Below are positions 9,165 to 58,352 of a DNA stretch of 64,000 bases, one piece after another. The notes under the pieces are model-generated. The model saw only the letters and a program-made list of their open reading frames with translations, was not told the origin of the DNA and did no database searches. Location: the NCBI RefSeq assembly GCF_020622265.1, contig NZ_JACNMQ010000005.1:1-64000 (forward strand), written 5' to 3'. A program made the position numbers and the translations under genes. Within the stretch, counting starts at the first letter, position 1, and each line of letters starts with the position of its first letter. The stretch comes from Halomonas sp. M20 (GTDB taxonomy: Bacteria > Pseudomonadota > Gammaproteobacteria > Pseudomonadales > Halomonadaceae).

Positions 9165-9262
9165 GGAGTTCCTGGGTAGGAGAACAGTAGAAATCAGTCA
9201 GGGCAGGCCTTCGCTGCGATATGCCCCGGACCTTATATCAATGAAATCGAAATATCATTTCA

Positions 9263-9284
9263 AGGCCGGAGCATGCTCCGGCCT
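9263..9284. terminator. Perfect 22-bp palindrome between nosZ and nosD
   Basis: AGGCCGGAGCA is followed directly by its reverse complement, giving a strong stem in RNA from either strand. There is no U-tract on the minus-strand transcript, so a full intrinsic terminator is uncertain; it may attenuate or protect the nosRZ message. It lies in the middle of the nosZ-nosD gap. Confidence 0.55.
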
Positions 9285-9307
9285 GTTTCTTTGAATATGC
9301 GTAGAGT

Positions 9308-9422
9308 AAATCGGCGAGCGGTATCAAGCACAAGGCGCGCGGCGCGCAGGAACCGGAGCATATGGGTTATATGTGAGATTCCGACCGGGCTGGCGCACCA
9401 GCGGCGCGCAACACAGTGATTG
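9308..9422 (-). repeat. Dispersed intergenic repeat, copy 1
   Basis: Read on the minus strand this stretch closely matches 19044-19142 on the plus strand. The shared core is CCCATATGCTCCGGTTCCTG, followed after a variable patch by CCGCTCGCCGATTT; the other end shares CAATCACTG. Copy 1 is about 16 bases longer. Indels between the copies break any common reading frame, so the element is conserved as nucleotide sequence, not as protein. It lies just downstream of nosZ. Confidence 0.75.
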
Positions 9423-9447
9423 AGCCGCGCAGCCATTTATCACTCCC

Positions 9448-11334: not shown

Positions 11335-11337
11335 GCT

Positions 11338-14279: not shown

Positions 14280-14732
14280 ATGGCCGATGGACTAACAAGA
14301 TCGGCGGCACGCAATATCTTCTTTGGCGGGTCGCTGTTTTTCTTCTTGCTGTTCGCTGCGCTGACGGCTCACAGCCACTGGTACATGAAGACGTCATCTA
14401 CCAACGAGGAGACGCTGACCGCCTCGGTCAAGCATGGCAAGGAGGTGTGGGAGGAGAATAGCTGCATCAACTGCCATAGCCTGATCGGTGAGGGTGCCTA
14501 TTTCGCGCCGGAACTGGGCAACGTCTGGGACCGCTATGGGGGCCGCGAGAACCCCGAAGCCGCTCGTGCGGGCTTGAAGGCCTGGATGGAGTCGCAGCCG
14601 CTCAATGTGCCAGGACGCCGTCAGATGCCGCAATTCAATCTGAGTGACGATGAGCTGGACTCCCTGGTCGATTTCTTCCAGTGGACCGATTCCATCGATA
14701 CCCAGGACTGGCCGCCTACCAAATCAGGCTGA
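14280..14732 (+). CDS. norC: Nitric oxide reductase cytochrome c subunit
   Basis: The 150-residue membrane-anchored cytochrome c subunit of cNOR, which passes electrons to NorB. It has one N-terminal transmembrane helix (NIFFGGSLFFFLLFAALTA), then the haem motif CINCHSLIGEGAYFAPELGN and a C-terminal helix containing RQMPQFNLSDDELDSLVDFFQW with the methionine ligand. A strong GGGGGGA Shine-Dalgarno stretch precedes the ATG. It is the first gene of norCBQD; NsrR- and FNR-like sites lie upstream. Confidence 0.97.
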   Translation: MADGLTRSAARNIFFGGSLFFFLLFAALTAHSHWYMKTSSTNEETLTASVKHGKEVWEENSCINCHSLIGEGAYFAPELGNVWDRYGGRENPEAARAGLKAWMESQPLNVPGRRQMPQFNLSDDELDSLVDFFQWTDSIDTQDWPPTKSG

Positions 14733-14795
14733 TTGATCGCGCGCATCGAAGGTGCAAGAGAGACAAGGGTTCAAGAACACAGGAGCATCGAACCG

Positions 14796-16145
14796 ATGAA
14801 ATATGAAACACAGTGGGTGGCCTATCCCTTCTTTGCCGTCGCGATGTTGCTGTTCGCGCTGCAGATCGTGTTTGGGTTGTTGGCTGCCACCGTTTATGTG
14901 GTACCGGAATTCTGGGCCGAGTTCATGCCCTTCAATATCATACGCATGAGTCATACCAACCTACTGATCGTCTGGCTGTTGATCGGTTTCATGGGCTGTA
15001 CCTACTTCCTGATGCCAGAAGAGGCGGAGCGGGAGATTCATAGCCCGATGATCGCCTACATTCAGCTGGGTATTTTCGTTATCGCCGGGGTGGGCGCTTT
15101 GGTCAGCTATCAGCTCGGTATCCATGAAGGTCGCGAGTTCCTCGAGCAGCCGTTCTGGGTCAAGGTGCTGATTACCATCTCCTTTCTGATGTTTCTCTAC
15201 AACACCAGCATGACCTTGCTCAAGGGGCGCAAGACCGCAGTCAACATGATCCTGATGCTGGGCCTGTGGCTGGCGGCAGTATTCTGGCTGTTCGCTTTCT
15301 TCAACCCGAGCAATCTGGCCCTGGACAAGCTCTACTGGTGGTGGGTCGTGCACATCTGGGTAGAGGGCGTGTGGGAGCTGATCATGGCCTCGCTGCTGGC
15401 CTACCTGCTGATCAAGATGACCGGGGTGGACCGTGAAGTGATCGAGAAGTGGCTCTACGTCATCATCGGTCTGGCGCTGTTCTCCGGCCTGCTGGGGACC
15501 GGTCACCACTACTACTGGATCGGTGCGCCTGGCTACTGGCAGCCCATCGGCAGCATCTTCTCCACCCTCGAAGTATTGCCATTCTTCGTCATGGTGATGT
15601 TCGCCTTCAGCATGTTCTGGAAGGGTCGGCGCAACCACCCCAACAAGAGTGCCATGCTATGGACTCTGGGCAGCGCTGCCACGGCATTCTTTGGCGCGGG
15701 CGTATGGGGCTTCATGCACACGCTGTCCTTCGTCAACTACTATAGCCACGGCACCCAGGTCACTGCCGCCCACGGCCATCTGGCCTTCTACGGCGCCTAC
15801 GTGATGATGATACTGGCGGTGATCACCTACGCCATGCCGCAGATTCGTCGCGTGCAGCCCTACAATCAGATCATGAACATGTGGAGCTTCTGGATCATGA
15901 CCTCCGCCATGGCCTTCATGACCTTCACCCTGACCTTTGCCGGTGTGGTGCAGACCCACCTGCAGCGGGTGCTGGGCATGAACTACATGGAAGTCCAGGA
16001 CCAGCTCGTGCTGTTCTATGTCATGCGTCTGGGTACGGGGGTAGCGGTGGCCATTGCCGCAGTGCTGTTCCTCTATGCCATCTTTGGACGTGTGAAAGAG
16101 CAGTTGCCTGCCGGCGGCACCCAAATGACTTCTGGCGCCTACTGA
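14796..16145 (+). CDS. norB: Nitric oxide reductase catalytic subunit (cNorB)
   Basis: The 449-residue, twelve-helix subunit that reduces 2 NO to N2O at a haem b3-FeB site. The start MKYETQWVAYPFF at 14796 has AGGAG ten bases upstream; a longer frame from 14733 is not needed. Diagnostic elements are MSHTNLLIVWLLIGFMG, the VHIWVEGVWELI segment with its conserved glutamates, the GTGHHYYWIG histidine pair and the late AAHGHLAFYGAYVMM haem ligands. It is the short cytochrome c-dependent form, without a quinol-oxidase N-terminal extension. Confidence 0.97.
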   Translation: MKYETQWVAYPFFAVAMLLFALQIVFGLLAATVYVVPEFWAEFMPFNIIRMSHTNLLIVWLLIGFMGCTYFLMPEEAEREIHSPMIAYIQLGIFVIAGVGALVSYQLGIHEGREFLEQPFWVKVLITISFLMFLYNTSMTLLKGRKTAVNMILMLGLWLAAVFWLFAFFNPSNLALDKLYWWWVVHIWVEGVWELIMASLLAYLLIKMTGVDREVIEKWLYVIIGLALFSGLLGTGHHYYWIGAPGYWQPIGSIFSTLEVLPFFVMVMFAFSMFWKGRRNHPNKSAMLWTLGSAATAFFGAGVWGFMHTLSFVNYYSHGTQVTAAHGHLAFYGAYVMMILAVITYAMPQIRRVQPYNQIMNMWSFWIMTSAMAFMTFTLTFAGVVQTHLQRVLGMNYMEVQDQLVLFYVMRLGTGVAVAIAAVLFLYAIFGRVKEQLPAGGTQMTSGAY

Positions 16146-16176
16146 GCCGTAGCTGAATTGCCGCACCACGTAGCAA

Positions 16177-16214
16177 CCCGCGACTTCGACACAAGTTTTC
16201 AACGAGGTCGCGGG
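16177..16214 (+). terminator. Hairpin between norB and norQ
   Basis: CCCGCGACTTCG pairs with CGAGGTCGCGGG over 12 bp with one G-U wobble and a 14-base loop. It begins 32 bases after the norB stop and is followed by a short run of T (16220-16225). It could partly terminate or stabilise the norCB message so that norQD are made at lower levels. Confidence 0.55.
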
Positions 16215-16242
16215 ACATTGATTTTTCCCTGGAGTATCTCTT

Positions 16243-17058
16243 ATGTCCTCCTCATCTGCCCGATCCCACGAGGCTGATAGTGAGCTTCCTTTTTACCAAC
16301 CGGTCGGTAACGAACGCGAACTGTTCGAACATGCCTATCAGCAGCACTTGCCTTTGCTGCTGAAAGGGCCGACAGGCTGTGGCAAGACCCGCTTCGTTGC
16401 TCACATGGCGGCGCGGCTAGGCAAGCCTTTATTTACCGTCTCCTGTCACGATGACTTGACCGCCGCCGACTTGACCGGACGCTATCTACTGCAGGGCGGC
16501 GAGACGCGCTGGGTCGATGGCCCCTTGACCCGCGCCGTGCGTGAAGGCGGTATCTGCTATCTCGACGAGGTGGTAGAGGCACGCAAGGACGTCACCGTGG
16601 TATTGCACCCGTTGACCGACGATCGACGTTTGCTGCCTCTGGAGCGCACCGGCGAGCTGCTCGAGGCACCGGACGATTTCATGCTGGTGGTGTCCTACAA
16701 CCCGGGCTATCAGCACATCCTGAAGTCGCTCAAACCCAGTACCCGCCAGCGTTTCGTGGCCCAGACCTTCGGCTTCCCTCCGCCGGCGGTGGAGCGGGAT
16801 ATCGTCGCTCGGGAAAGCGGTCTATCCGCGGACAGATGTAGCGCCCTGGTCAACCTGGCCGCGCGGTTGCGCGACATGAAAGGCCAGGATCTGGAAGAGG
16901 GCGTGTCGACGCGTCTACTGGTCTACTGCGCCACCTTGATCGTCGCCGGCATGCCCATCATGCAAGCGGCCCGGGCGACTCTGGTGGAGCCGCTTTCCGA
17001 TGACGAGGATGTGCAAGAAGGACTACTCGAAGCTATCCGAGCCACCTTTGGTGAGTAA
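16243..17058 (+). CDS. norQ: MoxR-type AAA+ ATPase NorQ
   Basis: A 271-residue cytoplasmic AAA+ ATPase that with NorD inserts the non-haem iron into NorB. Walker A is GPTGCGKT (about residues 42-49), Walker B is ICYLDEVVEA and the sensor region is VVSYNPGYQ. The PLLLKGPTGCGKTRFVAHMAARL stretch is highly typical of NorQ/CbbQ. It ends 15 bases before norD and follows norB after a hairpin. Confidence 0.96.
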   Translation: MSSSSARSHEADSELPFYQPVGNERELFEHAYQQHLPLLLKGPTGCGKTRFVAHMAARLGKPLFTVSCHDDLTAADLTGRYLLQGGETRWVDGPLTRAVREGGICYLDEVVEARKDVTVVLHPLTDDRRLLPLERTGELLEAPDDFMLVVSYNPGYQHILKSLKPSTRQRFVAQTFGFPPPAVERDIVARESGLSADRCSALVNLAARLRDMKGQDLEEGVSTRLLVYCATLIVAGMPIMQAARATLVEPLSDDEDVQEGLLEAIRATFGE

Positions 17059-17073
17059 CAAGGGCTTGAGCCT

Positions 17074-19014
17074 ATGAGCAAGCTGGATTTTCTTGAAGTG
17101 GAAGAGTTCGTCGGGCGCCACTGGCACCGCTGGGCGTCCAATGCCACCAGTTATCCGCATCATCCCGAGGCAGCGGTTCAACTCGAGGATCTGCGCGTCG
17201 TGCTGGGGGTGTTTTTCCGTGCCAGCGGCGGAGAGGCAGGCCTTGAAGTGGCAGCCATCGCTGCGCGCAACTCGACCCATCGCCTGAGTTTGCGACAGCG
17301 CCTGGGCTTCGATGAGGAAATCCTCGATATCGCTCGGCGCGACGAGGAAAATCTGTTGCTGCCTCCCACTCTCGATCTGTTTGCCGATGCTGCTCTCAAT
17401 CGCGATCTTTACTTCTGGCTGGCGGCTTTCTTGGCGCTGGCGCGGCGCGTTCCACACCGTGGCGATCCACTGCGCCAGGACATTGCCTGGCTGCGTGACG
17501 TCCTGGGGGCGACTCATCGAACCCTGGCCCACTTTCCCGGGCTGCAGGAGCGCCATACGCGGCTCTGCAAGGCGCTGCTGACCGTTCGTCCCAAGCGCCG
17601 CCTTCCGGCGACCGAAGCCGCCGTTGAAATGGTCATCCTGCGCCTGCTCGGCGATTCGCAACCGTTGAACGGCGAGGCCGCCGAGCTGGAGGCGGCAATT
17701 AACGATCCCGATGCTTCCCTGGATGCCTTTCAAGCACCCCGGGGCTATCGCCCACCGCTTCCCGTACCGCTCTGGGCGCAGGTGGTCGATCTGGGTAACC
17801 AGGGCGAAACCCGCCCCCTGGGGGATGACGATGAGCCGGGCGATCAACAGGCGGAAGCGGTTGCTCAAGGCAAGCGCAAGGCGGAGCGCCGGCGCCAGGA
17901 CCAGAGTGAACGCAAGGATTCGCTGATCTTCAATCGCTTCGAGAAGATGCTGTCCTTTTCCGAGATGATCAATCTCAATCGCATGGTGGACGATGAAGAG
18001 GACAAGAACGCCAAGAGCACCGCGGAACAGATGGAGGAGATCACCCTAAGCCCTCACCAGCAGCGGGCGGCGTCTCAGCTCAAGATCGATCTGGACCTGG
18101 CGCCGGAGGCCATCAGCGGCGAGCGCCTGCGTGGCAAGCACCTTTACCCCGAGTGGAATCATCGCAAGCAGATCTATCTGCCGGATCACTGCGCGGTGCT
18201 GACGGACCTGCAAAGCGAAGAGGGCGAGGACTGGACACCGGACGAAACGACCCGGCGACGCATCCGGCGGGTGCGTCGGGAGTTCGAGGCGTTGCGGCCG
18301 CGTCGCGAAACCCTGCGGGGTCAGCTCGATGGCAGCGAGCTGGACATGGATGCGGTGATTCGCGCCCATTGCGATCTGGTTGCCACCGGTGAGACCAACG
18401 ATCGCCTGTATCTGGCAACCCGGCAGCAGGCCCGGGATCTGGCCGTGTCGATCCTTGTGGATGTGTCGCTGTCCACGGATGCCTGGCTGGAGGATAGGCG
18501 AGTGCTGGACGTGGAAAAAGAGGCTCTGCTGGTGCTCGGTCACGGACTGGCGGGCTGCGGCGACGACTACGCAATTCACTGCTTCACTTCCCATCGCCGC
18601 CAGAAGGTGTGGGTCAACACTCTCAAGACGTTTGAAGAGTCCATGAACGAGCGAGTCGATCGGCGCATCGCGGCCCTCAAGCCGGGGCGCTACACCCGCA
18701 TGGGGCCAGCCATCCGGCATATGACGCAAGAGCTTTCCAAACGGCCTAATCGTCATCGTTTGCTGCTGGTGCTCACCGATGGCAAGCCCAACGATACCGA
18801 CTATTACGAAGGGCGTTATGGCATCGAGGATACCCGCAAGGCGATCCGGGATGCGCGTCAGCAGGAGATCAAGGTATTCGGCGTGACCATCGATCAGGAG
18901 GCGCGGCAGTATATTCCGCATCTGTTCGGCCGTGGGGGTTATGCCATCGTGCAAAAGCCTGAGCACCTTTCATTGGCGCTGCCGGGGATATACCGTCAAA
19001 TCATTGCCAACTGA
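17074..19014 (+). CDS. norD: Von Willebrand factor A domain protein NorD
   Basis: A 646-residue partner of NorQ. The C-terminal third is a vWA domain with the metal-binding site DVSLSTDAW (DxSxS) and LVLTDGKPNDTDYYEGRYG, both canonical for NorD. The middle contains a charged, low-complexity stretch around the acidic MVDDEEDKNAKSTAEQMEE segment. The N-terminal helical part is the usual NorD/CbbO region. It is the last gene of norCBQD; a dispersed repeat begins 29 bases after its stop. Confidence 0.95.
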   Translation: MSKLDFLEVEEFVGRHWHRWASNATSYPHHPEAAVQLEDLRVVLGVFFRASGGEAGLEVAAIAARNSTHRLSLRQRLGFDEEILDIARRDEENLLLPPTLDLFADAALNRDLYFWLAAFLALARRVPHRGDPLRQDIAWLRDVLGATHRTLAHFPGLQERHTRLCKALLTVRPKRRLPATEAAVEMVILRLLGDSQPLNGEAAELEAAINDPDASLDAFQAPRGYRPPLPVPLWAQVVDLGNQGETRPLGDDDEPGDQQAEAVAQGKRKAERRRQDQSERKDSLIFNRFEKMLSFSEMINLNRMVDDEEDKNAKSTAEQMEEITLSPHQQRAASQLKIDLDLAPEAISGERLRGKHLYPEWNHRKQIYLPDHCAVLTDLQSEEGEDWTPDETTRRRIRRVRREFEALRPRRETLRGQLDGSELDMDAVIRAHCDLVATGETNDRLYLATRQQARDLAVSILVDVSLSTDAWLEDRRVLDVEKEALLVLGHGLAGCGDDYAIHCFTSHRRQKVWVNTLKTFEESMNERVDRRIAALKPGRYTRMGPAIRHMTQELSKRPNRHRLLLVLTDGKPNDTDYYEGRYGIEDTRKAIRDARQQEIKVFGVTIDQEARQYIPHLFGRGGYAIVQKPEHLSLALPGIYRQIIAN

Positions 19015-24718: not shown

Positions 24719-25150
24719 ATGAAAATTGTCAGCGCATCCTTACTCGCGAGCTTGATGTTGCTACCCATGGGGGCGGCAATGGCTAGTGAAGGCGGTGCAC
24801 CGAGCATGGAAATCGAACTTCAGGAACCAGGTGGCGATATCACCATTGCCACGCTCGTATCGAATGTCGATGGGTTTGTGGTGGCCCACGAGGCAGATGA
24901 CGAAGGCAAGCCGAATACAAAGGCCATCGGCCACACCCAGATAAAAAAAGGGTCTCAGGAGCGCATCGGGATCGTGTTGGATAGGGACATGGAATCCGGT
25001 GAAAAGATCTTCGTCATGTTGCATGAAGATACGGGCAAGGAAGGCGAGTACGAATTCGGCCCGGATAATACCGATGTGGATAAACCCGTCATGGTGGATG
25101 GCAAACCCTTCATGAAGTCTTTCCAGGTCAGCTGGACTGGCGATCACTGA
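24719..25150 (+). CDS. Secreted DUF7282-like protein
   Basis: A 143-residue exported protein with a signal peptide (MKIVSASLLASLMLLPMGAAMA) and strong AAGGAGG ribosome site. The mature part reads like the DUF7282 beta-sandwich: NVDGFVVAHEADDEGKPNTKAIGHTQIKKGSQERIGIVLDRDMESGEKIFVMLHEDTG, with the family's 'GFVVxH...G' and 'L.ED/D.G' pattern. The family is common in haloarchaea and some bacteria; its function is unknown. It is acidic, in keeping with a halophile's periplasm. It is followed by a 14-bp inverted repeat and precedes the molybdoenzyme operon by 470 bases. Confidence 0.75.
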   Translation: MKIVSASLLASLMLLPMGAAMASEGGAPSMEIELQEPGGDITIATLVSNVDGFVVAHEADDEGKPNTKAIGHTQIKKGSQERIGIVLDRDMESGEKIFVMLHEDTGKEGEYEFGPDNTDVDKPVMVDGKPFMKSFQVSWTGDH

Positions 25151-25278: not shown

Positions 25279-25292
25279 TTGACGCAAATCAA
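25279..25292. promoter_or_regulatory. FNR-type box upstream of the molybdoenzyme operon
   Basis: TTGACGCAAATCAA matches FNR TTGAT-N4-ATCAA at 9 of 10 positions. It lies 328 bases before the alpha-subunit start, so a long leader is implied if it controls that operon. The rest of the 469-base gap 25151-25619 is AT-rich with no gene I can support. Confidence 0.55.
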
Positions 25293-25619
25293 TTTTAGTG
25301 CAGAAAGGGACTATTCGCAGGCTCATCTGACACCACTTCCACCCTCGCACTGCTAAACTACAGCACAACTTAAGTAGTAGTGCCTCGCCAATCAAAAAAT
25401 AACCGACTAGCTCAGGCCTTGCGTTAGCAAGCTTAATATTAGCCTAAATTAAAGTTGGCTTGCCCGATAGGATATTGGCATATCGATCTATATGGTGATG
25501 ATCGTAGGTATCTGATTTATAAATAAATTATAGGTACGGTTCATCCATGCCATCCCAATTGGCCATAAAAATGATGACAGGTGAGTCCCTGCAGACTCGC
25601 CAATGATGAGGAGAGAACC

Positions 25620-28382
25620 ATGGGGATGTGGAAACTCAAGCGCCGTGACTTCTTGAAAGGCATGGGACTAACCGGCACCGGCGTGCTGCTCAGCGGTAAC
25701 GTCTGGGCGCTCAATCGCCTCGAGCCCATCGGCGACAGCCTGAACGAAGAATATCCTTATCGTGGCTGGGAAGATCTGTACCGCAACGAGTGGGACTGGG
25801 ACAAGATTGGCCACGCCGCTCACTGTATCAACTGCATGGGCAACTGCGGCTGGGACGTCTATGTAAAAGATGGCATCGTGATCCGCGAGGAGCAGATCGC
25901 CAAGTACCCTCAGGTCAATTCCAAGGTGCCGGATGCCAACCCGCGGGGTTGCCAGAAGGGTGCCATCCACTCCGCCGCCATGTACGAGGCGGATCGCGTG
26001 CACTATCCGCTCAAGCGTGCCGGTGAACGCGGCGAGGGCAAGTGGCAGCGTGTATCCTGGGATCAGGCCACGGAAGAAATCGCCGACAAGATCATCGATA
26101 TCTTCGAGAAATATGGCCCGGGCAAGCTCAAGACCCACCAGGGTTCCGGCAATCAGTCCATGGTACGCCAATCCGCGGGCAACCGTTTTTCCTGCCTGGT
26201 CGGCGGCATTCAGCTCGACGGCTTCACCGTGGTCGGCGACTTGAACACCGGGGCGCACCTGGCCTATGGCAACCCGCTGGAAAGCTTCACCTCGGATGCC
26301 TGGTTCGATGCGGATTACATCCTGCTGGGCATGATCAATCCCAATGCCACTCGTATCCCGGATGCTCACTATATCTGGGAAGCGCAGCATAACGGCGCGC
26401 GTATCGTTTCCACCGCACCGGACATGAACCCCAGCGCCATTCACACCGACCTGTGGATGCCCATCAAGCACGGCACCGACCCTTACCTTGCCATCTCCAT
26501 GGTCAATGTGATCATCGAGGAAAAGCTCTACAAGCCCGAGTTCATGAAGGAGCAGACGGATCTTCCGATTCTGGTGCGCAGCGACAACCAGAAGATGCTG
26601 CGGGAATCCGATATGGAAGAGGGCGGCTCCGAGGAAATCTTCTACCACTGGGATCTCAACAGCAACAAGCCGGTCAAGGTCAAGGGCTCCATGGGCTCCA
26701 CGGACAAGACCATCAAGCTCGACGGCGTCGATCCCGCCATCGAGGGTGAGTTCGATTTCGACGGTATTGCAGTTGCCACCGTCTTTGAGTTCGTCAAGAA
26801 AGAGGCTGCCAAGTTCCCGCCGGAAGACACCGAGTCCCGCACGGGGCTGAATGCGGACATGGTGCGTCGCGAGGCGCGTCGCATGGCCGAGGCGCGCAAG
26901 GCCATCGTCATGCTGGGCTACATCACATCCTTCTATTCCAACTGCCTGTTCACCGGCTGGGGCTATGCGCTGGCGCTGGCATTGACCGGTCACGGCGGCA
27001 AGACCGGCGGCCTGGATACCTCCTGGGTGGTGTGGAACCACCCGCGCTGGACGGAGCTTGCCAACTTCGGCGGCAAGAAGCTGCCCCGTTACGAAGCCGG
27101 TGGCATCGGCGAATTCAAGCGCGGCAACATGATCAAGGGCGCGCGCAAGCATTTCGACAACGCCAAGCTCAAGGAGGCGGTGGGCTTCGATCTCGATGAT
27201 ATGGAAGAGATGATGCAGGAGTCCATCGATAAGGGCTGGATGCCCTATTACGGCGAGATCAAGGGCATGATCTCAGTGGCGGACAACACCTTCCGGCGCA
27301 ACAAGTACGTCGACGAGTACCGCCGGGTGCATCTGGAGCAGGCAAGCGAACTCTACGTCAACGTCAACGTGCGTCTGGACTCCACCGCGGAATGGGCGGA
27401 TTACGTGTTGCCCGCGGCCAGCCACTACGAGGCCTGGGATCTGCGTACTCAAGGGTTCCACCGCTTCTGTAACGTGTTCACTCGCCCGGTAGAGCCGATC
27501 TTCGAATCCAAGCCGGATTGGGAAATCATGGCGCTTTTGACCAAGAAGATTCAGGAGCGGGCTATCGCTCGGGGTATTGGCGCTATCGAGGACGGTGACG
27601 TGACCCGGGACCTGCATACCATTCATGACGACTTCACCATGAATGGCAAGCTGATGACTGATTATGACGTGACCAAGTGGATGGTGGAAAACTCACCGGA
27701 GTACGGTGACATAACCATTGAAGAGGCAGCTGAGAAAGGCTTTATCGTGCTGAACGAAAAGGCCGGCACCAATCAGCCCCTGGTAAAAGACGAGCCCTAC
27801 AATCCCTTTACCGCTCAGACCGATACCAAGAAGCCCTACGATACCCTGACCGGACGTATCACCTTCTACTGTGATCATCCGTGGTTCATGAAGATGGGGG
27901 CTGCGGTACCCACCGGGCGCGGAACCGCCGGACCGGCAGCATCGAACTATCCGTTGGCGTTCTATTCTCCTCACACCCGCTGGGGTATCCACTCCAACTG
28001 GCGGTCAAACAAGTTCATGCTGCGCCTGCAGCGAGGTGAACCGAACATCTACATCAATCCTCAGCTGGCGGATGAGAGAAATATCAAGGACGGCGATACC
28101 GTGCGGCTGTTCAACGCCAACGGCGAGTTCTTCGCCCAGGCGAAGTTCTACCCGAGTATTCCCGCCAACACGATCATGATGGAGCACGGCTGGGAGCCGC
28201 ATCAGTACATTCAAAGAAAGCCCATGAACAACTCCATGGCGACCTTCCTGCAGCCGCTCGAAATGGCCGGCGGTTGGGGACATCTAGGCTTCAAGTATGC
28301 GATGTGGAACGCCAACCAGTTGGCGCACGAGGGCAGCTACGACATCGAACTGGCCAAACCCGAAGACATCAGCTTCAGCTGA
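25620..28382 (+). CDS. Type II DMSO-reductase-family molybdoenzyme, catalytic alpha subunit (SerA/ClrA/DdhA/EbdA-like)
   Basis: A 920-residue bis-MGD enzyme exported by Tat: KRRDFLKGMG lies at residues 7-16. The FS0 cluster ligands are H68, C72, C76 and C111 (HCINCMGNC and NPRGCQKG), with the histidine first ligand of the type II subgroup. The likely molybdenum ligand is D207 in VVGDLNTGAHLAYG. Segments such as EQTDLPILVRSDNQKMLRE and PDAHYIWEAQ place it near selenate, chlorate, dimethylsulfide and ethylbenzene enzymes. Genes for beta, delta and gamma follow in the Ser/Clr/Ddh order. The ATG at 25620 has GAGGAGAG upstream. The substrate and direction of catalysis cannot be read from the sequence; no chlorite dismutase gene is nearby. 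Confidence 0.9.
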   Translation: MGMWKLKRRDFLKGMGLTGTGVLLSGNVWALNRLEPIGDSLNEEYPYRGWEDLYRNEWDWDKIGHAAHCINCMGNCGWDVYVKDGIVIREEQIAKYPQVNSKVPDANPRGCQKGAIHSAAMYEADRVHYPLKRAGERGEGKWQRVSWDQATEEIADKIIDIFEKYGPGKLKTHQGSGNQSMVRQSAGNRFSCLVGGIQLDGFTVVGDLNTGAHLAYGNPLESFTSDAWFDADYILLGMINPNATRIPDAHYIWEAQHNGARIVSTAPDMNPSAIHTDLWMPIKHGTDPYLAISMVNVIIEEKLYKPEFMKEQTDLPILVRSDNQKMLRESDMEEGGSEEIFYHWDLNSNKPVKVKGSMGSTDKTIKLDGVDPAIEGEFDFDGIAVATVFEFVKKEAAKFPPEDTESRTGLNADMVRREARRMAEARKAIVMLGYITSFYSNCLFTGWGYALALALTGHGGKTGGLDTSWVVWNHPRWTELANFGGKKLPRYEAGGIGEFKRGNMIKGARKHFDNAKLKEAVGFDLDDMEEMMQESIDKGWMPYYGEIKGMISVADNTFRRNKYVDEYRRVHLEQASELYVNVNVRLDSTAEWADYVLPAASHYEAWDLRTQGFHRFCNVFTRPVEPIFESKPDWEIMALLTKKIQERAIARGIGAIEDGDVTRDLHTIHDDFTMNGKLMTDYDVTKWMVENSPEYGDITIEEAAEKGFIVLNEKAGTNQPLVKDEPYNPFTAQTDTKKPYDTLTGRITFYCDHPWFMKMGAAVPTGRGTAGPAASNYPLAFYSPHTRWGIHSNWRSNKFMLRLQRGEPNIYINPQLADERNIKDGDTVRLFNANGEFFAQAKFYPSIPANTIMMEHGWEPHQYIQRKPMNNSMATFLQPLEMAGGWGHLGFKYAMWNANQLAHEGSYDIELAKPEDISFS

Positions 28383-28409
28383 TCCTGACCGGCGCGAGAG
28401 GAGAAAATC

Positions 28410-29390
28410 ATGGCCGTAAAACGTCAAATCAGCATGGTGCTGGACCTGAACAAATGTATTGGCTGCCAGACCTGCACATCCGCCTGCAAGCTGATGTGGA
28501 CCAACCGCAGCGGTCGCGAATACATGTACTGGAACAACGTCGAGACCATGCCTGGGGAAGGTTATCCCCGGGGCTACCAGAAGATGGGCGGCGGTTTCGA
28601 CAAGGACGGGGCGCTGAAGCTCAGCAAGCAACCTACGCTGGAAGATTATGGTATTCCCTGGGAATACAACTATGAAGAAGCCCTGATGACCGGCACCGAT
28701 CCCTGGCTGCGTCCCAACGTCAAGCCTACTTGGGGGGCCAACTGGGATGAAGATCAGGGCGAGGGGGACTACCCCAACAGCTACTACTTCTACCTGCCGC
28801 GTCTGTGCAACCACTGCGCCAACCCGGCCTGTTTGGCGGCCTGTTCGCGTAACGCCATCTACAAGCGCCAGGAAGACGGCATCGTACTGGTGGACCAGGA
28901 GCGCTGCCGAGGCTATCGCTACTGCGTCAACGCCTGCCCCTACAAGAAGGTCTACTTCAACGAGGAAATATCGAAGTCTGAGAAGTGCATCTTCTGCTAT
29001 CCAAGGATCGAAAAGGGCCTGGCCACCGCCTGTGCCCGCCAGTGTGTCGGTCGGATTCGCTGGATCGGCTATCGCGACGACGAGGAAGGCCCGATTCACA
29101 CTCTGGTGGAAAAGTACAAGGTCGCCTTGCCGCTGCATCCGGAGTGGGGCACCCAGCCCAACGTCTTCTATGTGCCGCCGATGTCTTCTTCGAAGTTCGG
29201 CCCCAACGGCGAGGAGTTGGATGAGCCGCGTATACCGCTTGCGTACCTGGAAAGCCTGTTCGGCGAACGGGTCGGCGAGGTGCTGGAGACCATCAAGCGT
29301 GAGCGCAAGGCTAAGAACGAAGGCCGGGAGAGCGAGCTGATGGATACGCTGATCGGCTTCAAGCACGCCGAAATGTTCAAGTTGAGCTGA
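28410..29390 (+). CDS. Molybdoenzyme Fe-S electron-transfer beta subunit
   Basis: A 326-residue four-cluster ferredoxin-like subunit related to SerB, DdhB, EbdB and NarH. Cluster motifs are CIGCQTCTSACK (residues 16-27), CNHCANPACLAACSRNAIYKR, CRGYRYCVNACPYKK and CIFCYPRIEKGLATACARQC. In CRGYRYC a tyrosine replaces the second cysteine, which in EbdB and NarH-type subunits gives one [3Fe-4S] cluster. It has no signal peptide and is expected to be co-exported with the Tat-bearing alpha subunit. It follows alpha by 27 bases. Confidence 0.93.
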   Translation: MAVKRQISMVLDLNKCIGCQTCTSACKLMWTNRSGREYMYWNNVETMPGEGYPRGYQKMGGGFDKDGALKLSKQPTLEDYGIPWEYNYEEALMTGTDPWLRPNVKPTWGANWDEDQGEGDYPNSYYFYLPRLCNHCANPACLAACSRNAIYKRQEDGIVLVDQERCRGYRYCVNACPYKKVYFNEEISKSEKCIFCYPRIEKGLATACARQCVGRIRWIGYRDDEEGPIHTLVEKYKVALPLHPEWGTQPNVFYVPPMSSSKFGPNGEELDEPRIPLAYLESLFGERVGEVLETIKRERKAKNEGRESELMDTLIGFKHAEMFKLS

Positions 29391-29400
29391 GGGCGACACC

Positions 29401-30144
29401 ATGACGACAGCTCAACGACTGCCTTCGGTGGATTCTCCCGCCCGCGCGGAAGCCAAGAGCACGATCTACCGCTTGGCGGCGGTAGCCTTCGGCCATCCGT
29501 TGCCGGAAACCCAGCAGGCCTTCGCCGACGGCAGCTTCAACCAGGCGCTGGATAGCGCCTGGCAGGCGGTCACCGGTCGCCCCTGGCCATGCCAGCCGGC
29601 AAGCAGCAGTTTTGCCGAACTGGAATCGGGCTATATCAGCACTTTTCGTCATGGTCAGAAAGGTAAGCCGCAGGTAGCACTGGTGGCAGGAGAGTACGAG
29701 GAGCTGCTCAAGGGCCAGACGCGTCCCACCTTCCTGCTGAACGTGCAGGCCTTCTACAAGCATTTTGGCCTGCAGGCCGCCGTGGGGGACGAGGGGCTGA
29801 CCGAAGAGCCGGATCACCTGAGCGCCATGCTCGAGTTCATGGCGGTATTGACCCATCTGGAGGCTCAGGCGCTTGCGCAGCATAAGGAGGCGAACCCCTA
29901 TCGTCTCGCGCAACGGGACTTTATCAAGCGGCATCTGGTGCCGCTGCTTGCGGCCATTCAACGAAAGGCCGGCAGCGAAAAAAGGCTGATCCTGGATGCG
30001 ACCCTGATACGCCTGATCGAGGACCTGCCAGAGTGGGCAAGGAACCAGCTGGTCGAGCTCGAGGCAAGAGTGGGGCCTTATGATGAAAAGGCCAAGGACG
30101 CCGCGATCAAGGGCCGCGTTCCCGATCAGAACCTGTGGAATTGA
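29401..30144 (+). CDS. TorD/DmsD-family assembly chaperone (delta)
   Basis: A 247-residue cytoplasmic, all-helical protein of the TorD/NarJ chaperone type. These bind the Tat peptide of the alpha subunit and help molybdenum cofactor insertion. Family-like features are IYRLAAVAFGHPLPE, a central YEELLKGQTRPTFLLNVQAFYKHFGLQ and DHLSAMLEFMAVLTHLEAQAL. It is placed between beta and gamma, the order of serABDC, clrABDC and ddhABDC. It starts 10 bases after beta. Confidence 0.88.
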   Translation: MTTAQRLPSVDSPARAEAKSTIYRLAAVAFGHPLPETQQAFADGSFNQALDSAWQAVTGRPWPCQPASSSFAELESGYISTFRHGQKGKPQVALVAGEYEELLKGQTRPTFLLNVQAFYKHFGLQAAVGDEGLTEEPDHLSAMLEFMAVLTHLEAQALAQHKEANPYRLAQRDFIKRHLVPLLAAIQRKAGSEKRLILDATLIRLIEDLPEWARNQLVELEARVGPYDEKAKDAAIKGRVPDQNLWN

Positions 30145-30156
30145 GGAGAGATGATA

Positions 30157-30993
30157 ATGCAGCGCTCAATCAACTACCTGGCCGCGCTCCTGATCGGACT
30201 GCCGCTGTCCGGCACCGCCCTGGCGGAGTTCTCGGAGTTTGAAAACCCCAATATTCAGGAGGTAGAGCCCTGGGATACTATCAGGATAGGCCGAGTACCG
30301 GATGACATCTATTTGAGGGATATCGATGACCCGGACGACATTATCTGGGATCGAATTCCTGCCTATCGCACTTATCTGAGCGTGGCGCCGCCGGTGCACC
30401 CCTCGACGAAGCTGCGCTTCAACGCGGATAGCGGCACGAACTTGTATTTTCAGGTCGCCCGCACCTCGGATTACTTTCTGGTGCGATTGCGCTGGAAGGA
30501 CACCACCCAAAACATCGGTACTACCATCGACGGCTTTCGCGATGCCGCTGCCATTCAGTTCGCCCTCAATGGCAGCACGGACACCTCTTACATGATGGGC
30601 TCGGGGCCGGATAGCCCGGTCAATATCTGGTACTGGCGTTCGGACCATGAGTTTCATGTGGAAGACCTGGCCGCCGGCGGCTATGGCAGTACGACCATGT
30701 TGCCGGATCAGCAGCTCAACGGACACGCCGCGTACAACGATGGCCGTGCACCCGTGGATCAGGAATGGCATCTGGTAATGGCGCGAAAAATCGGAGAGGA
30801 GGGCGATCACAAGATCGACCTGACCCAGGATCAGATTCCCATCAGCTTCGCCGTATGGCAGGGGGCGGATGGCGGACGAGACGGTAACAAGCACGTCACT
30901 CAAGGATGGATTCTGCTGGACAATAGTCTGGAAGGCGGCAAGTCCTTTGACGATGACAAGGCTCAGGCCTCCACTCAAACGTCCAATCAATAG
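30157..30993 (+). CDS. Periplasmic haem b gamma subunit of the molybdoenzyme (EbdC/DdhC-like)
   Basis: A 278-residue secreted protein with a Sec signal peptide (MQRSINYLAALLIGLPLSGTALA). The ethylbenzene-dehydrogenase gamma fold is indicated by YFLVRLRWKD, FRDAAAIQFAL, YMMGSGPDSPVNIWYWRSD and GRDGNKHVTQGW. By analogy with EbdC, a methionine in YMMG and the lysine in GNKH are likely axial haem b ligands. The start at 30157 is preferred over 30151 because GAGGAG lies eight bases before it. Electrons would pass from here to a periplasmic cytochrome or the reverse. Confidence 0.88.
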   Translation: MQRSINYLAALLIGLPLSGTALAEFSEFENPNIQEVEPWDTIRIGRVPDDIYLRDIDDPDDIIWDRIPAYRTYLSVAPPVHPSTKLRFNADSGTNLYFQVARTSDYFLVRLRWKDTTQNIGTTIDGFRDAAAIQFALNGSTDTSYMMGSGPDSPVNIWYWRSDHEFHVEDLAAGGYGSTTMLPDQQLNGHAAYNDGRAPVDQEWHLVMARKIGEEGDHKIDLTQDQIPISFAVWQGADGGRDGNKHVTQGWILLDNSLEGGKSFDDDKAQASTQTSNQ

Positions 30994-31001
30994 GTGTCGG
31001 A

Positions 31002-32165
31002 ATGTCGGTTTCCTACCTCAACGTAGGCAATGACTCAGCGGGCGATAACGAGGAACTCAAGCTCAGCCCGGCGAATTGCGGGCTGGGCCATTCCTGTCAG
31101 TTTTGTCCTCATGAGCCCCACTGCAGCCTGGACAAGCCCCATCACGAGAAACTGCTGATCGAAAGTTGCCTTGAGTGCATCGATCAGATCGTGCTGGTAA
31201 TGGCCAACAAGGGCGGCGTTGGCAAGAGCACCGTGTCTGCCAATCTGGCCACCGGTTTGGCTCAGCGCGGCTATCGGGTTGGCGTGGCGGATGCGGATAT
31301 CCACGGTCCCAATCAGAGTCGCTTCTTCGGCTTCGCCGGCGAGCACGTGCGTCTGAGCGAGCAGGGCCTGGCGACCAAGGATTTCACTGACGATGCTTTG
31401 GAGCATCCGGTCAAGGTCGGCTCGCTGGCCTTTCTGATGGAAAGCGACGATACGCCCATCGTATGGCGAGACGCCTACAAGCATGACTTCATGCATCATC
31501 TGGTGGGCTCCTTTGACTGGGGCGAGCTGGATTTCCTGATCGTCGATATGCCCCCGGGCACCGGCAACGAACTGATTACGCTTTCCGACATGCTGGAAGG
31601 CGCGAATGTCTCGGCCTTGCTTGCCACCACGCCGCAAGACGTGGCGCTGATGGACAGCTTGAAAGCCGTGCGCTTCTGTCATGAGCGGGGCCTGCCGATG
31701 CTGGGCGTGGTGGAAAACATGTCCGGCATCACCTGCCCACACTGCAGCGGTGAGTTTCATCTTTTCCCCCGGGATCATCTGGTGGAAAGCCTTGCCAAGG
31801 CCGGTATTGAATCCTTGACCCAGATCCCCTTGGCATTGGAACTTGCCTCGGGCTCGGACCTGGGCACGCCAGTGGTGGTCGCGCATCCTCAGAGCCCCGC
31901 CGCCCAGGCATTCACCCCGGTGGTGGAAGCCTGCATCACGAAGGCCCAGTCGGCGTTCTCCCAGGCTGCGGTGCACTCCCTGGGGGATGCGTTTGACAAG
32001 AATCTCGAGTCTTCCGATCTGGAAGACGCTCTGGCGGGTTTTCCCGAAGAAGAGCGCGACGCCATGCGCCAGGAACTGGAAGCCATGTTGAGCGCCGAGC
32101 AGCAACGTCTCTCCGGTGCCGATGTTTCCGTCGATTCATCCAGTTATGATGACAGCGATAAATAA
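31002..32165 (+). CDS. Mrp/Nbp35-like Fe-S carrier ATPase with extra N-terminal cysteine cluster
   Basis: A 387-residue P-loop ATPase of the Mrp/ApbC group, which carry and transfer Fe-S clusters. The deviant Walker A KGGVGKST is at residues 70-77, DADIHGPNQ and VDMPPGTGNE follow, and a C-terminal CPHC (about 245-248) is the usual bridging-cluster motif. Unusual for bacteria is the N-terminal C26-x5-C32-x2-C35-x5-C41, which resembles the ferredoxin-like N-terminal motif of eukaryotic Nbp35; C56/C59 form a further pair. An acidic 60-residue tail follows. It starts eight bases after gamma, so a dedicated maturation role for the molybdoenzyme's clusters is likely but inferred. Confidence 0.85.
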   Translation: MSVSYLNVGNDSAGDNEELKLSPANCGLGHSCQFCPHEPHCSLDKPHHEKLLIESCLECIDQIVLVMANKGGVGKSTVSANLATGLAQRGYRVGVADADIHGPNQSRFFGFAGEHVRLSEQGLATKDFTDDALEHPVKVGSLAFLMESDDTPIVWRDAYKHDFMHHLVGSFDWGELDFLIVDMPPGTGNELITLSDMLEGANVSALLATTPQDVALMDSLKAVRFCHERGLPMLGVVENMSGITCPHCSGEFHLFPRDHLVESLAKAGIESLTQIPLALELASGSDLGTPVVVAHPQSPAAQAFTPVVEACITKAQSAFSQAAVHSLGDAFDKNLESSDLEDALAGFPEEERDAMRQELEAMLSAEQQRLSGADVSVDSSSYDDSDK

Positions 32166-32173
32166 GGAATTAC

Positions 32174-34087
32174 ATGGCCATAACCGGCACTGCAACCAAC
32201 CCTGAGCGTCGTCGCCTATTTCGTGATCTGCTCGGCGGCGGCGATCCCGAAGCGCCGCATCAGGCGCCCTGGCATCGAGTACCGGAAGTCAGCGCCGGCG
32301 ATGGCGATGTGCTGTGGTCCGGCTGGGCATCCAGCAATGAAGTGTTCGTGGTGGGTGACGAAGGCATGATCCTGCACTTCGATGGCACTCCCGCGGAAGA
32401 CGGCAGCCTGTGGCATCACATGGAAACGCCGATACAGTTGCCGCTGCACGCCATCTGGGGCAACGATCGCTTGCGGCTCTACGCGGTGGGCTGGATGGGG
32501 TCCATCCTGCATTTCGATGGTGACCAATGGCACCTACAGCGTGGCGGCATCATCGATGAGAAAACCGAGCGCTTCGCTCCCTGCGAGGAAAACACCCCGC
32601 TGTTCGCCATCATCGGCGACGAGGCAGGCCGCGCCTGGGCGGTAGGCGACGACGGCATGATCCTGACCCTCGATGGCGATACCTGGCGGCGCGAAGCCAG
32701 CGGGACCACGATCAATCTGCGCGGCATTACGCGCACCCCCAATGGCCAGCTCTATGCGGTAGGCGGCGAAGGCACGGTGCTCACTAGCGCCGGCGACGGC
32801 CAGTGGCACCAGCTCGAGTGCCCCTTCGGTTCGGGCTTCATGACCGTGCTGGCGCTTGGTGACGATGAATTGCTGCTGGCCGGTGGGCGCTATTTCATCG
32901 ACCAGAACGGTTTTCGTGGCGAATTGGTACGTTATCAAAAGGGGCGTTTCGAGAACGTTCAAGTCGACAAGCCCATGCCGCGGCTGCGCTCTCTCAAGAC
33001 CTACAAGGACGGCGTGCTGATCGTTGGTGATCAGGGGCATCTCTACTATCTCAAGGACAGTCTGAAGGGCAGCAGGCTCGACCAGCTGCAAAGCAACAAC
33101 CGTCACGATCTGATGGATATCGTACCGCTGCCTACCGGGGAAGCCCTGGCGGTGGGTGATTTCGGCACCATCATGACCGCGGCGGCGGACTTTACCCAGG
33201 CCCTGGCGCCGGAGGTCGACCCCGATGCCGAACAGGCCATCGACTGGGAACTCATGGACTCCGGTACCCAGCGTCAGCTCTGGGGCCTCTGGGCCAGCCC
33301 GGATGGCACGCTCTACGCTTGCGGCGAGAGCGGCACGGTACTGCGTCATGCAAATGAAGGCCAAGGCGACAATGGCGACAACCGCTGGGAAACACTGCCG
33401 GCCCCCAGTGAACTCTCGGTGCACTGTGTATGGGATGCCGGGCAGGGCGGCCTGTATGCCGCTGGGCAGATGGGACAGATATTTCGCTTCGACGGCGAGC
33501 GGTGGGACAAGCATTACGACCTGCATCTGGATATCACCATTCTGGCCATGTGGGGCACCGGGCCGAACTCGATCTATGCGGTGGGAGACGAAGGGCTGAT
33601 CCTGCATTGGGACGGCCTGGGTTGGCAGCGCATGATCAGTAGCACCAAGTCCGCGCTCTACAATATCTGGGGTATGGACGACGATCATATCTTGGCAGTG
33701 GGCGACTTCGGTTTGATCTTGCGCTGGAATGGCGACAACTGGGCGGAGTTTCACGCCGGTACCGAAAATTTCCTCTACGATGTGTGGGGGGATAGCCTGA
33801 GCAACATCTTCATCGTCGGGCTTTCCGGCACCCTGGGGCATTTCGATGGCACGCGCTGGATGCTGACCCCGGCCCGAGCCCGGGACGATCTGCTGGCAAT
33901 TTCCGGCACGTCTGACGTTGGCCCTTACGTCGTCGGCACCGGCGGCAATATCCTGCGCTATGAAGGCGGAGAGTGGCAGCCGGAGAACGCTGGCACCACC
34001 ACCGGCCTGCGCGCGGTGCGAGTAACCGGCCAAGGCGATGTCTTCGCCGCCGGCGATAAGGGTACGATTCTCAAAAGAAAACGTTAG
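32174..34087 (+). CDS. Large beta-propeller-like repeat protein (Ycf48-like), unknown role
   Basis: A 637-residue protein made almost wholly of repeats of about 40-45 residues, each with a core like 'xxIWGxDDxxIYAVGDxGxILHWDGxxW'. Examples are AIWGNDRLRLYAVGWMGSILHFDGDQW, NIWGMDDDHILAVGDFGLILRW and DVWGDSLSNIFIVGLSGTLGHFDG. At least a dozen units can be counted, enough for two seven-bladed propellers. The repeat resembles Ycf48/BNR-type assembly factors. There is no signal peptide or Tat motif, so it probably stays in the cytoplasm. It starts eight bases after the Mrp-like gene and ends eight bases before the DCC gene; an assembly or scaffolding role is a guess. Confidence 0.75.
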   Translation: MAITGTATNPERRRLFRDLLGGGDPEAPHQAPWHRVPEVSAGDGDVLWSGWASSNEVFVVGDEGMILHFDGTPAEDGSLWHHMETPIQLPLHAIWGNDRLRLYAVGWMGSILHFDGDQWHLQRGGIIDEKTERFAPCEENTPLFAIIGDEAGRAWAVGDDGMILTLDGDTWRREASGTTINLRGITRTPNGQLYAVGGEGTVLTSAGDGQWHQLECPFGSGFMTVLALGDDELLLAGGRYFIDQNGFRGELVRYQKGRFENVQVDKPMPRLRSLKTYKDGVLIVGDQGHLYYLKDSLKGSRLDQLQSNNRHDLMDIVPLPTGEALAVGDFGTIMTAAADFTQALAPEVDPDAEQAIDWELMDSGTQRQLWGLWASPDGTLYACGESGTVLRHANEGQGDNGDNRWETLPAPSELSVHCVWDAGQGGLYAAGQMGQIFRFDGERWDKHYDLHLDITILAMWGTGPNSIYAVGDEGLILHWDGLGWQRMISSTKSALYNIWGMDDDHILAVGDFGLILRWNGDNWAEFHAGTENFLYDVWGDSLSNIFIVGLSGTLGHFDGTRWMLTPARARDDLLAISGTSDVGPYVVGTGGNILRYEGGEWQPENAGTTTGLRAVRVTGQGDVFAAGDKGTILKRKR

Positions 34088-34095
34088 GGAAAGCA

Positions 34096-34503
34096 ATGAG
34101 TGACGACGCAGTGCTGATCTACGACGGCCAGTGTCCCTTCTGTGCCAACTACGCTCGTCTGGTGCGATTACGGGGAACTGTCGATCGTCTCAAGCTGGTC
34201 GATGCCCGGGAAAAGCCCGCCATTATGGAAGAAATCAACCACGCCGGACTGGATATCGACCAGGGCATGGTGCTCAAGCTGAATGGCAACTTGTATCACG
34301 GTGACGAAGCGATGCAACGGGTGGCACTGATGAGTAGCCGCTCGGGCGTCTTCAACCGTCTCAATCACTGGATATTTCGCTCGCCTCGGCGCGCGCGCCT
34401 GCTCTATCCGCCGCTGCGGGGTATTCGCAATCTCGTGATCAAGGGGCTGGGGCGCAGGCCCATCGATAATCTCGCTCGCAAAGAGAAGGGTGAGGGTTCT
34501 TGA
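34096..34503 (+). CDS. DCC family thiol-disulfide oxidoreductase-like protein (DUF393)
   Basis: A 135-residue protein beginning MSDDAVLIYDGQCPFCANYARLVR; the D-G-x-C-x-x-C motif at residues 10-15 defines the DCC (DUF393) family, which is predicted to have a thioredoxin-like redox role. It starts eight bases after the propeller gene and is the last gene of the molybdoenzyme unit. No signal peptide. Function of the family is not established. Confidence 0.85.
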   Translation: MSDDAVLIYDGQCPFCANYARLVRLRGTVDRLKLVDAREKPAIMEEINHAGLDIDQGMVLKLNGNLYHGDEAMQRVALMSSRSGVFNRLNHWIFRSPRRARLLYPPLRGIRNLVIKGLGRRPIDNLARKEKGEGS

Positions 34504-54753: not shown

Positions 54754-54840
54754 GTCGATCAACTCCTCATCGGTAGGCCTCAGGAGCACTGCATCGCTTG
54801 AGCGAATGCGTGATTGCTCCATGCTGCCAAATAACCCAGG

Positions 54841-57639: not shown

Positions 57640-57641
57640 GG

Positions 57642-58334: not shown

Positions 58335-58352
58335 AGGTTTACCTCCTCGGAA

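Follow-up and report, generated by a model that had tools for sequence, protein, structure and literature searches.

A probable dimethyl sulfide dehydrogenase gene unit with a linked Mrp-propeller gene pair in Halomonas sp. M20

The gene unit and its closest described relatives

In type II members of the dimethyl sulfoxide (DMSO) reductase family, the alpha and beta subunits mature in the cytoplasm with a delta chaperone and leave it by the twin-arginine translocation (Tat) pathway. The described systems closest to the locus analysed here are the dimethyl sulfide (DMS) dehydrogenase DdhABDC of Rhodovulum sulfidophilum, the enzyme linked to chlorite dismutase (Cld) in Stutzerimonas chloritidismutans AW-1 and, at a greater distance, ClrABDC of Ideonella and the SerABDC-type enzymes. 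Strain AW-1 reportedly respires chlorate, and a chlorate reductase is said to have been purified from it (2003 paper). The locus lies in a stretch of 64,000 nucleotides of Halomonas sp. M20 (assembly GCF_020622265.1, contig NZ_JACNMQ010000005.1, positions 1 to 64,000; hereafter, the window), in which seven closely packed genes with short gaps occupy positions 25620-34503 of the forward strand. In our judgement, this unit is quite probably a ddhABDC operon specifying a soluble periplasmic DMS dehydrogenase, accompanied by an Mrp-type ATPase and a propeller protein that would act in maturation before export.

An earlier note on this DNA, made from the sequence alone, had described a seven-gene unit, and the unit proved real: all genes are in place, their profiles fit and a six-gene order recurs elsewhere. 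The genes encode a ddhA-type alpha subunit with molybdenum bis(molybdopterin guanine dinucleotide) (Mo-bis-MGD), FS0 and the Tat signal KRRDFLK (25620-28382; ATG start, a longer GTG open reading frame beginning at 25581), a ddhB-type beta subunit with Fe-S clusters (28410-29390), a ddhD-type delta chaperone (29401-30144), a ddhC-type gamma subunit of a haem b family with a signal peptide recognized by eye (30151-30993), an Mrp/Nbp35-type P-loop ATPase (31002-32165), a 637-residue double propeller, probably of two seven-bladed units, with no recognisable export signal (32174-34087), and a DCC-type thiol-disulfide protein, a genus-level addition (34096-34503). The gaps before the last three genes are 8 bases each. 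The TIGR and Pfam profiles bear out the type II family and the alpha-beta-delta-gamma order: alpha scored 1207.8 bits against TIGR03479 (cut-off 984.75), beta 580.3 against TIGR03478 (480.7) and delta 160.4 against TIGR03482 (152.3). Gamma fell slightly below the cut-off of TIGR03477 (164.9 vs 169.85 bits) and exceeded that of PF09459 (52.2 vs 33.3); the earlier note had described it as a haem b subunit. Mrp and DCC matched PF10609 (243.3 bits) and PF04134 (38.1 bits), respectively, and the propeller gave sub-threshold Pfam matches only (PSII_BNR/Ycf48 and HVO_0234). The NCBIfam equivalog cut-offs for the ethylbenzene dehydrogenase Ebd were not reached by alpha (438.5 vs 2000 bits) or beta (435.3 vs 740).

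The Tat signal and the His-first FS0 motif that had been noted in alpha are both present, and the motif residues H68, C72, C76 and C111 are invariant, together with D207 (codon 26238-26240), in a seven-row alpha alignment. D207 aligns with the Asp that serves as Mo ligand in PcrA and EbdA, in agreement with its proposed role as Asp ligand. The predicted features of the unit include the A/B/D/C order, a twin-Arg signal, an Asp Mo ligand, a His-first FS0 and a gamma subunit of the haem b family. The six-gene order is the same from Halomonas to R. sulfidophilum and is thus not due to chance; the earlier view that the genes form one functional unit is supported.

Relatives of the unit were sampled as the best 78 of 551 confirmed stretches in a contig scan. 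The main alpha tree comprises 78 rows, after removal of 4 duplicate loci and then of 16 of the 94 remaining rows, all from outside the clade of interest; two loci of that clade, with no alpha frame of >820 residues (L030 and L045), are not in it, and PcrA, EbdA and the Thauera SerA are absent from this tree and from a second one of 39 rows. In the main tree, the window alpha, the DdhA of R. sulfidophilum and the AW-1 alpha form a 54-row clade (SH-aLRT 100), the sister group of which contains Ideonella ClrA and Sedimenticola, and the 39-row bootstrap tree supports the clade with DdhA at 100/100. Both trees place the window alpha apart from the ClrA/SerA-type, NarG, haloarchaeal and other type II rows. 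The 78-row tree carries a long-branch warning, L069 included, and the branch of L060, L062 and L063 is unsure in the bootstrap tree (82/42). The alpha subunit therefore nests in a clade with characterised members (DdhA and the AW-1 enzyme), and the description of the substrate as unknown in the earlier note is not supported in that form.

The reference DdhA was taken from genome G151, since a stretch of 12,000 bases on its contig C2 matches plasmid NZ_CP015419.1 of R. sulfidophilum DSM 1374 at 100% identity and the 910-residue alpha of G151 is 75.7 and 76.0% identical to the alphas of Labrenzia DG1229 and Stappia BW2, respectively. These values agree with Carrion et al. (PMC6524544), who give 76% identity to R. 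sulfidophilum DdhA for isolates of Labrenzia, Stappia and Oceanicola that degrade DMS; those strains differ from the two compared here. An alpha gene was found in 2 of the 16 genomes of the genus of G151. For the window genome, 9 of 117 related genomes contained an alpha match at E <= 1e-100. The six near matches (77-100%) came from the window genome, 3 of the 13 other genomes of its genus and two genomes of its family, which indicates that the unit is patchily distributed.

The R. sulfidophilum system shares with the window the alpha clade, the A-B-D-C order, the Asp ligand, the gate Phe considered below and downstream Mrp and propeller genes (L124), the two propellers being 46% identical. 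It differs in its alpha subunit (67.3% identical), in gate residue 201 (Ile, whereas the window has Gly) and in a hybrid histidine kinase gene that adjoins its operon, where the window has an FNR-like box instead; the DCC gene is extra in the window. The AW-1 enzyme belongs to the same clade, with identities of 77.7% (alpha), 88% (beta), 65% (Mrp) and 62% (propeller), the latter two genes having been seen on the contig of its second copy, but it has a Cld gene and a c-type cytochrome gene alongside, a His-Val gate and no FNR-like box of 9/10. The ClrABDC and SerABDC-type systems resemble the window in gene order and architecture but form a clade of their own, with 43-45% identity, an Ala-Thr or Val-Ser gate and no Mrp or propeller gene.

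Gate residues and candidate substrates

In PcrA, Phe192 and Tyr193 are part of the substrate gate and Asp198 is the Mo ligand, as stated in a section of PMC8301774. By alignment, the corresponding gate residues of the window alpha are G201-F202 (codons 26220-26225). The gate pair is Gly-Phe in 31 of the 54 clade rows, including the window, Ile-Phe in 20, including DdhA, and Gly-Met, His-Ile (the CAL metagenome-assembled genome, MAG) and His-Val (AW-1) in one row each. Phe202 is thus present in 51 of the 54 rows, and the window keeps the Phe of DdhA with Gly replacing Ile. Among the 14 ClrA/SerA-type rows, 13 have Val-Ser and one, Ideonella ClrA (L026), has Ala-Thr, a second altered gate in a chlorate reducer; Phe-Tyr is found in 19 of the 26 other rows, NarG included. 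Position 202 alone combines conservation of at least 95% among the remaining clade rows with a change in both AW-1 and CAL; lowering the limit to 85% adds seven further positions. Since the AW-1 and CAL alphas are 99% identical, their gate change represents one evolutionary event.

These residues bear on whether the unit could instead be a reductase of chlorate, or of another oxyanion, like the AW-1 enzyme of the same clade, which we consider quite unlikely. The AW-1 alpha, 78% identical to that of the window, lies ~2.3 kb from a Cld gene, and no other alpha was found in the AW-1 genome at E <= 1e-40 save a second, C-terminal piece of the same kind; the Cld-linked gene may encode the purified chlorate reductase. 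This genome has two near-identical copies of the unit (L125/L126), with contig ends that overlap by 1641 bases with 3 mismatches. However, a search for Cld (PF06778) in 28 genomes, of which G004 and the L029 genome seem to be the same one counted twice, gave family matches in three only, those of AW-1, Tropicimonas and Sedimenticola; there was no match in the window genome or in the other Halomonas, Marinobacter, Oceanimonas and Colwellia genomes among them. In Tropicimonas and Sedimenticola, the Cld genes adjoin other molybdoenzymes (L127 and L129). The gate also separates AW-1 (His-Val) and CAL (His-Ile) from the other 52 rows, in which it is Gly/Ile-Phe (51) or Gly-Met (1).

Chlorate, selenate, hydrocarbon and nitrate as substrates were accordingly ranked below DMS on the basis of the clade, the gate residues and the lack of a Cld match. 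An enzyme of the Ideonella ClrA or SerA type was set aside because the window alpha is outside that clade and its gate is neither Ala-Thr nor Val-Ser; one of the AW-1 type, because the window genome has no Cld match and the gate is not His-Val/Ile, a signature known from one lineage; and a perchlorate reductase Pcr, because the gate pair is Gly-Phe, as against the Phe-Tyr-Trp gate of Pcr, and a gamma gene is present, whereas a passage of PMC6650914 describes Pcr as having no gamma subunit.

An unlikely alternative of another kind is that the enzymes of the gammaproteobacterial branch of the clade use another small thioether or organosulfur substrate, or that DMS is only one among several donors for them. 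The window alpha differs from DdhA by 33%, residue 201 is Gly rather than Ile, and position 209 is variable within the clade, all of which would suit a shifted specificity, but R. sulfidophilum has the same operon and the same accessory pair, and likewise a Phe near its Mo ligand. We thus favour a DMS dehydrogenase as the product of the unit.

The Mrp-propeller pair

Accessory genes were counted over 53 distinct clade loci, the duplicates L016, L018 and L046 having been dropped. All 49 loci whose sequence continues for at least 3.7 kb beyond alpha have the Mrp gene; of the 47 that continue for at least 5.7 kb, 44 have the propeller gene, the exceptions being L055, L061 and L063. Neither gene was detected in the ClrA/SerA-type loci (0/12 for each; duplicate L128 dropped), and the more distant rows gave 2/19 for Mrp and 0/16 for the propeller. 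Among the loci examined, the DCC gene occurs in 4 distinct genomes, all close Halomonas relatives of the window. The earlier note had regarded all three genes as uncommon, which holds for DCC, whereas Mrp and propeller are the rule in the clade. It had also named two outcomes that would count against it, alpha nesting in a characterised clade whose accessory genes had already been described, or a lack of conservation of the last three genes next to it. These are half borne out: alpha does group with characterised enzymes and DCC is confined to a few Halomonas, while Mrp and propeller are kept. The DCC protein may help in thiol chemistry and is dispensable to this kind of enzyme.

A profile search for the propeller in 369 genomes of the class (E <= 1e-30) recovered the window copy and, in three more genomes, partial matches of the repeat type; in 398 genomes of the phylum (E <= 1e-60), it recovered only the window copy. 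In most genomes, at most three candidates were scored. A second copy of the unit occurs in Oceanisphaera, Oceanimonas and a MAG (L038, L043 and L068), one copy being incomplete or propeller-less in the stretch seen. In Labrenzia DG1229 (L076, 16400-17290), the match of the propeller frame to the family is limited to the first 88 residues, and the frame is broken or frameshifted. Mrp partners recur in the molybdoenzyme superfamily: at a haloarchaeal type II locus (L027), there is an annotated P-loop NTPase as well as a partial match to Mrp, and the Cld-linked loci of Alisedimentitalea (L028) and Tropicimonas (L127) have an Mrp/NBP35 gene.

The Mrp protein is predicted to combine the PF10609 P-loop domain with a cluster-binding CxxC (C245 and C248), which is invariant in 35 of 35 aligned rows. 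Its N-terminal C-x5-C-x2-C-x5-C motif (C26, C32, C35 and C41; 31077-31124) is invariant in the same number of aligned rows and was recovered by pattern in 49 of 50. The C-terminal tail (residues 311-387; 31932-32162) varies in length with the propeller. Among complete rows, it has at least 50 residues in 45 of the 46 that possess a propeller, a count that takes in L076 despite its partial propeller frame, and between 3 and 18 residues in all four that lack one; two more rows, being incomplete, were passed over. A strict pairing of long tail and propeller fails in L069, which has a tail of 14 residues and a propeller. In the propeller-less L163 and L164, from the order of Rhabdochromatium, the Mrp frames stop within ~6 residues of the conserved part, and the co-variation rests on about two independent losses. 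The window Mrp has ESCLEC before the P-loop, whereas the four near Halomonas relatives have ESRLER, two Arg-to-Cys changes seen in the window only.

The propeller carries a twin arginine, R12-R13 (32207-32212), that all 44 aligned propellers share; with a more stringent pattern of the N-terminal motif, 37 of 44 rows gave a match within the first 80 residues, and residues 10-20 are modelled as a helix at low confidence. In the 40 residues after R12-R13, the best 15-residue hydropathy has a median of 0.28 and a maximum of 1.06, compared with a median of 1.23 and a minimum of 0.8 after the alpha Tat motif, so that ordinary Tat export of the propeller is unlikely, although the ranges overlap. Thirteen blade signatures and one double-length gap fit 14 blades, and the AlphaFold2 model (31 sequences; pLDDT 88.9, pTM 0.55) is nearly all beta. 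Foldseek searches of the PDB returned generic double-propeller matches only, with TM-scores of ~0.3-0.4 among the 50 matches listed, those near 0.37 including the two-propeller protein Aip1.

The delta subunit of the window ends in LWN (30133-30141), an instance of a [LM]-W-x tip that 50 of the 53 delta rows from clade loci share and that none of 23 others has (0/23). The exceptions are two Rhodospira rows, in which propeller, Mrp tail and delta tip have been lost together, and L021, which had entered the clade loci through a 44-residue alpha fragment at a contig end and whose delta belongs to another type II unit. In L061, L063 and L164, the tip is kept although no propeller match was found anywhere in the genomes, an observation that does not fit a simple pairing of tip and propeller; in L163, the tip is altered. 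The idea that the tip binds the propeller alone is thereby weakened.

We propose a dedicated Fe-S maturation module that would consist of the Nbp35-like Mrp, the double propeller with its invariant twin Arg and a chaperone ending in [Leu/Met]-Trp-x. The cytosolic iron-sulfur assembly (CIA) machinery pairs Nbp35, with its own Cys spacing, with the propeller Cia1, and its clients bear a C-terminal tripeptide. The window module is like it in having an Nbp35-type P-loop carrier (Nbp35/Cfd1 in CIA), an N-terminal four-Cys motif, a propeller and an aromatic C-terminal tripeptide on a partner, but it is bacterial and would have one client and two propellers, and the C-x5-C-x2-C-x5-C spacing and the [LM]-W-x tip both differ from those of CIA. 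We therefore use the likeness to the CIA machinery, as outlined in part of PMC10623007, as a working principle and not as membership, and claim no homology of the propellers. Transfer of Fe-S clusters to partner proteins in vitro is described, in an excerpt of PMC6345978, for MrpORP, a protein of the Mrp family.

It is rather unlikely that the two proteins are not maturation factors at all, the propeller being a sensor or pathway regulator and Mrp serving the delivery of the Mo cofactor or haem b. Propellers are versatile, the best Foldseek matches are generic two-propeller proteins, sensor domains included, and the maturation role is a proposal. On the other side, Mrp has an invariant CxxC and four invariant Cys near its N-terminus, as Fe-S carriers do, Pfam detected no DNA-binding or kinase domain in the propeller, and both genes lie downstream of the enzyme genes in the same direction.

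Gene neighbourhood, working model and implications

An FNR/Anr-like box, TTGACGCAAATCAA (25279-25292, forward strand), starts 341 bases before the alpha ATG and fits 9 of 10 bases of the FNR consensus. Boxes of at least 9/10 occur in 21 of 56 clade alpha upstreams, compared with 0.63 expected from mononucleotide shuffles; all 21 belong to the 33-row branch of the window, which includes an Alcaligenaceae row (L031), and none to the alphaproteobacterial rows. Scans for promoters and terminators were near chance (5 found vs 4.8, and 11 vs 8.2, respectively). The region before the unit (3626-24533) is an anaerobic-respiration island with a hemN-like gene, nosRZD and an ABC pair, norCBQD and then a ribonucleotide reductase gene; the nos (6131-13491, reverse strand) and nor genes (14280-19014, forward strand) are named from Pfam matches. 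The corresponding ribonucleotide reductase gene upstream in a genus mate (L017, 14858-18100, reverse strand) has a long in-frame intein-like insert that the window copy lacks. Directly upstream of the unit is a gene for a DUF7282 protein (24719-25150); such a gene also lies upstream of the unit in four near relatives and at no other locus examined. Elsewhere in the window, V/A-type ATPase subunit genes (54841-60571, reverse strand) lie beside a polyhydroxyalkanoate synthase gene (52996-54822); the window genome is 3.9 Mb in size.

At 13 loci (L031, L033-L035, L039, L040, L042, L044, L045, L048, L064, L067 and L125), the ddh-like unit has a gene for a small c-type cytochrome (CxxCH by eye) as its neighbour, which at 10 of them stands head-to-head with alpha, and the cytochrome is a probable electron partner. 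A hybrid histidine kinase family is found near the unit at 20 loci (L051-L059, L061-L063, L070-L072, L076, L088, L124, L163 and L164) and a response regulator family at 18 (not L055 and L124), their domains having been checked on L124 and L063. These are alphaproteobacterial and Rhabdochromatium-like rows, in which no FNR-like box of 9/10 was found.

In the working model, alpha would fold in the cytoplasm with the DdhD chaperone, carry Mo-bis-MGD and FS0, and be exported with beta by Tat; gamma would be exported separately and hold haem b. DMS would be oxidized to DMSO at Mo, and electrons would pass from FS0 to the clusters of beta, on to haem b and then to a c-type cytochrome in the periplasm. 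They would probably feed microaerobic or denitrifying respiration, given the FNR-like box upstream and the nos and nor clusters nearby. Mrp and propeller would act before export, Mrp carrying a [4Fe-4S] cluster and handing it over to apo-alpha/beta, and the cytoplasmic double propeller serving as a scaffold that joins Mrp and the chaperone-bound enzyme. Family, clade, gate residues, linkage of the genes and the co-variation of parts are direct results of the sequence comparison; substrate, electron partner and maturation role are inferred.

Several observations weigh against this model and the DMS dehydrogenase assignment. The window alpha is nearer to the AW-1 enzyme (77.7%) than to DdhA (67.3%), and, except for that of AW-1, we know of no biochemical test of a gammaproteobacterial clade member. 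A single lineage, that of AW-1 and CAL, underlies the gate argument. In the CAL MAG, the AW-1-type gate occurs with no Cld match, although an incomplete MAG may miss one, so that it is AW-1 that ties the gate to chlorate. An FNR-like box of 9/10 is missing from three of the four nearest relatives (L017 8, L029 7 and L019 7; only L032 has one of at least 9/10), and the c-type cytochrome of the 13-locus family is not next to the unit in the window. The role of Mrp and propeller in maturation is itself something that we infer, and the propeller is absent genome-wide in two Rhodospira and four Rhabdochromatium-group genomes and is therefore not essential to the enzyme everywhere.

Taken as a DMS dehydrogenase, the enzyme belongs to a known kind, and it is its accessory module that deserves testing. 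Searches of a limited body of open-licence literature found no account of an Mrp-propeller pair linked to ddh or clr genes, although the 2002 Ddh, 2003 AW-1 and 2013 chlorate transposon papers may mention it. A bolder and tentative combination, possible but not one we would count on, is that DMS dehydrogenases have a private CIA-like Fe-S module, in which the Mrp tail docks on the propeller and the DdhD tip presents the apo-enzyme, and that chlorate respiration in AW-1 arose from within them by a two-residue gate change, parallel to that in Ideonella (Ala-Thr vs Val-Ser).

The gas DMS is relevant to climate, and profile searches are used to count ddhA in metagenomes. One published survey (PMC7039863) predicts ddhA in Rhodocyclales, Mesorhizobium and Sterolibacterium; none of these was among the clade matches listed from our sample (best 78 of 551 stretches), and Rhodocyclales rows were placed in the ClrA/SerA-type group of the 78-row alpha tree. 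Some metagenomic ddhA counts may therefore be paralogues. A Phe five residues before the Mo-ligand Asp, together with the Mrp-propeller pair, provides simple markers of ddh loci. The pair itself, if our proposal is true, would be a client-specific Fe-S maturation kit open to genetic test, and the gate change in AW-1 would offer a testable route from DMS oxidation to chlorate reduction.

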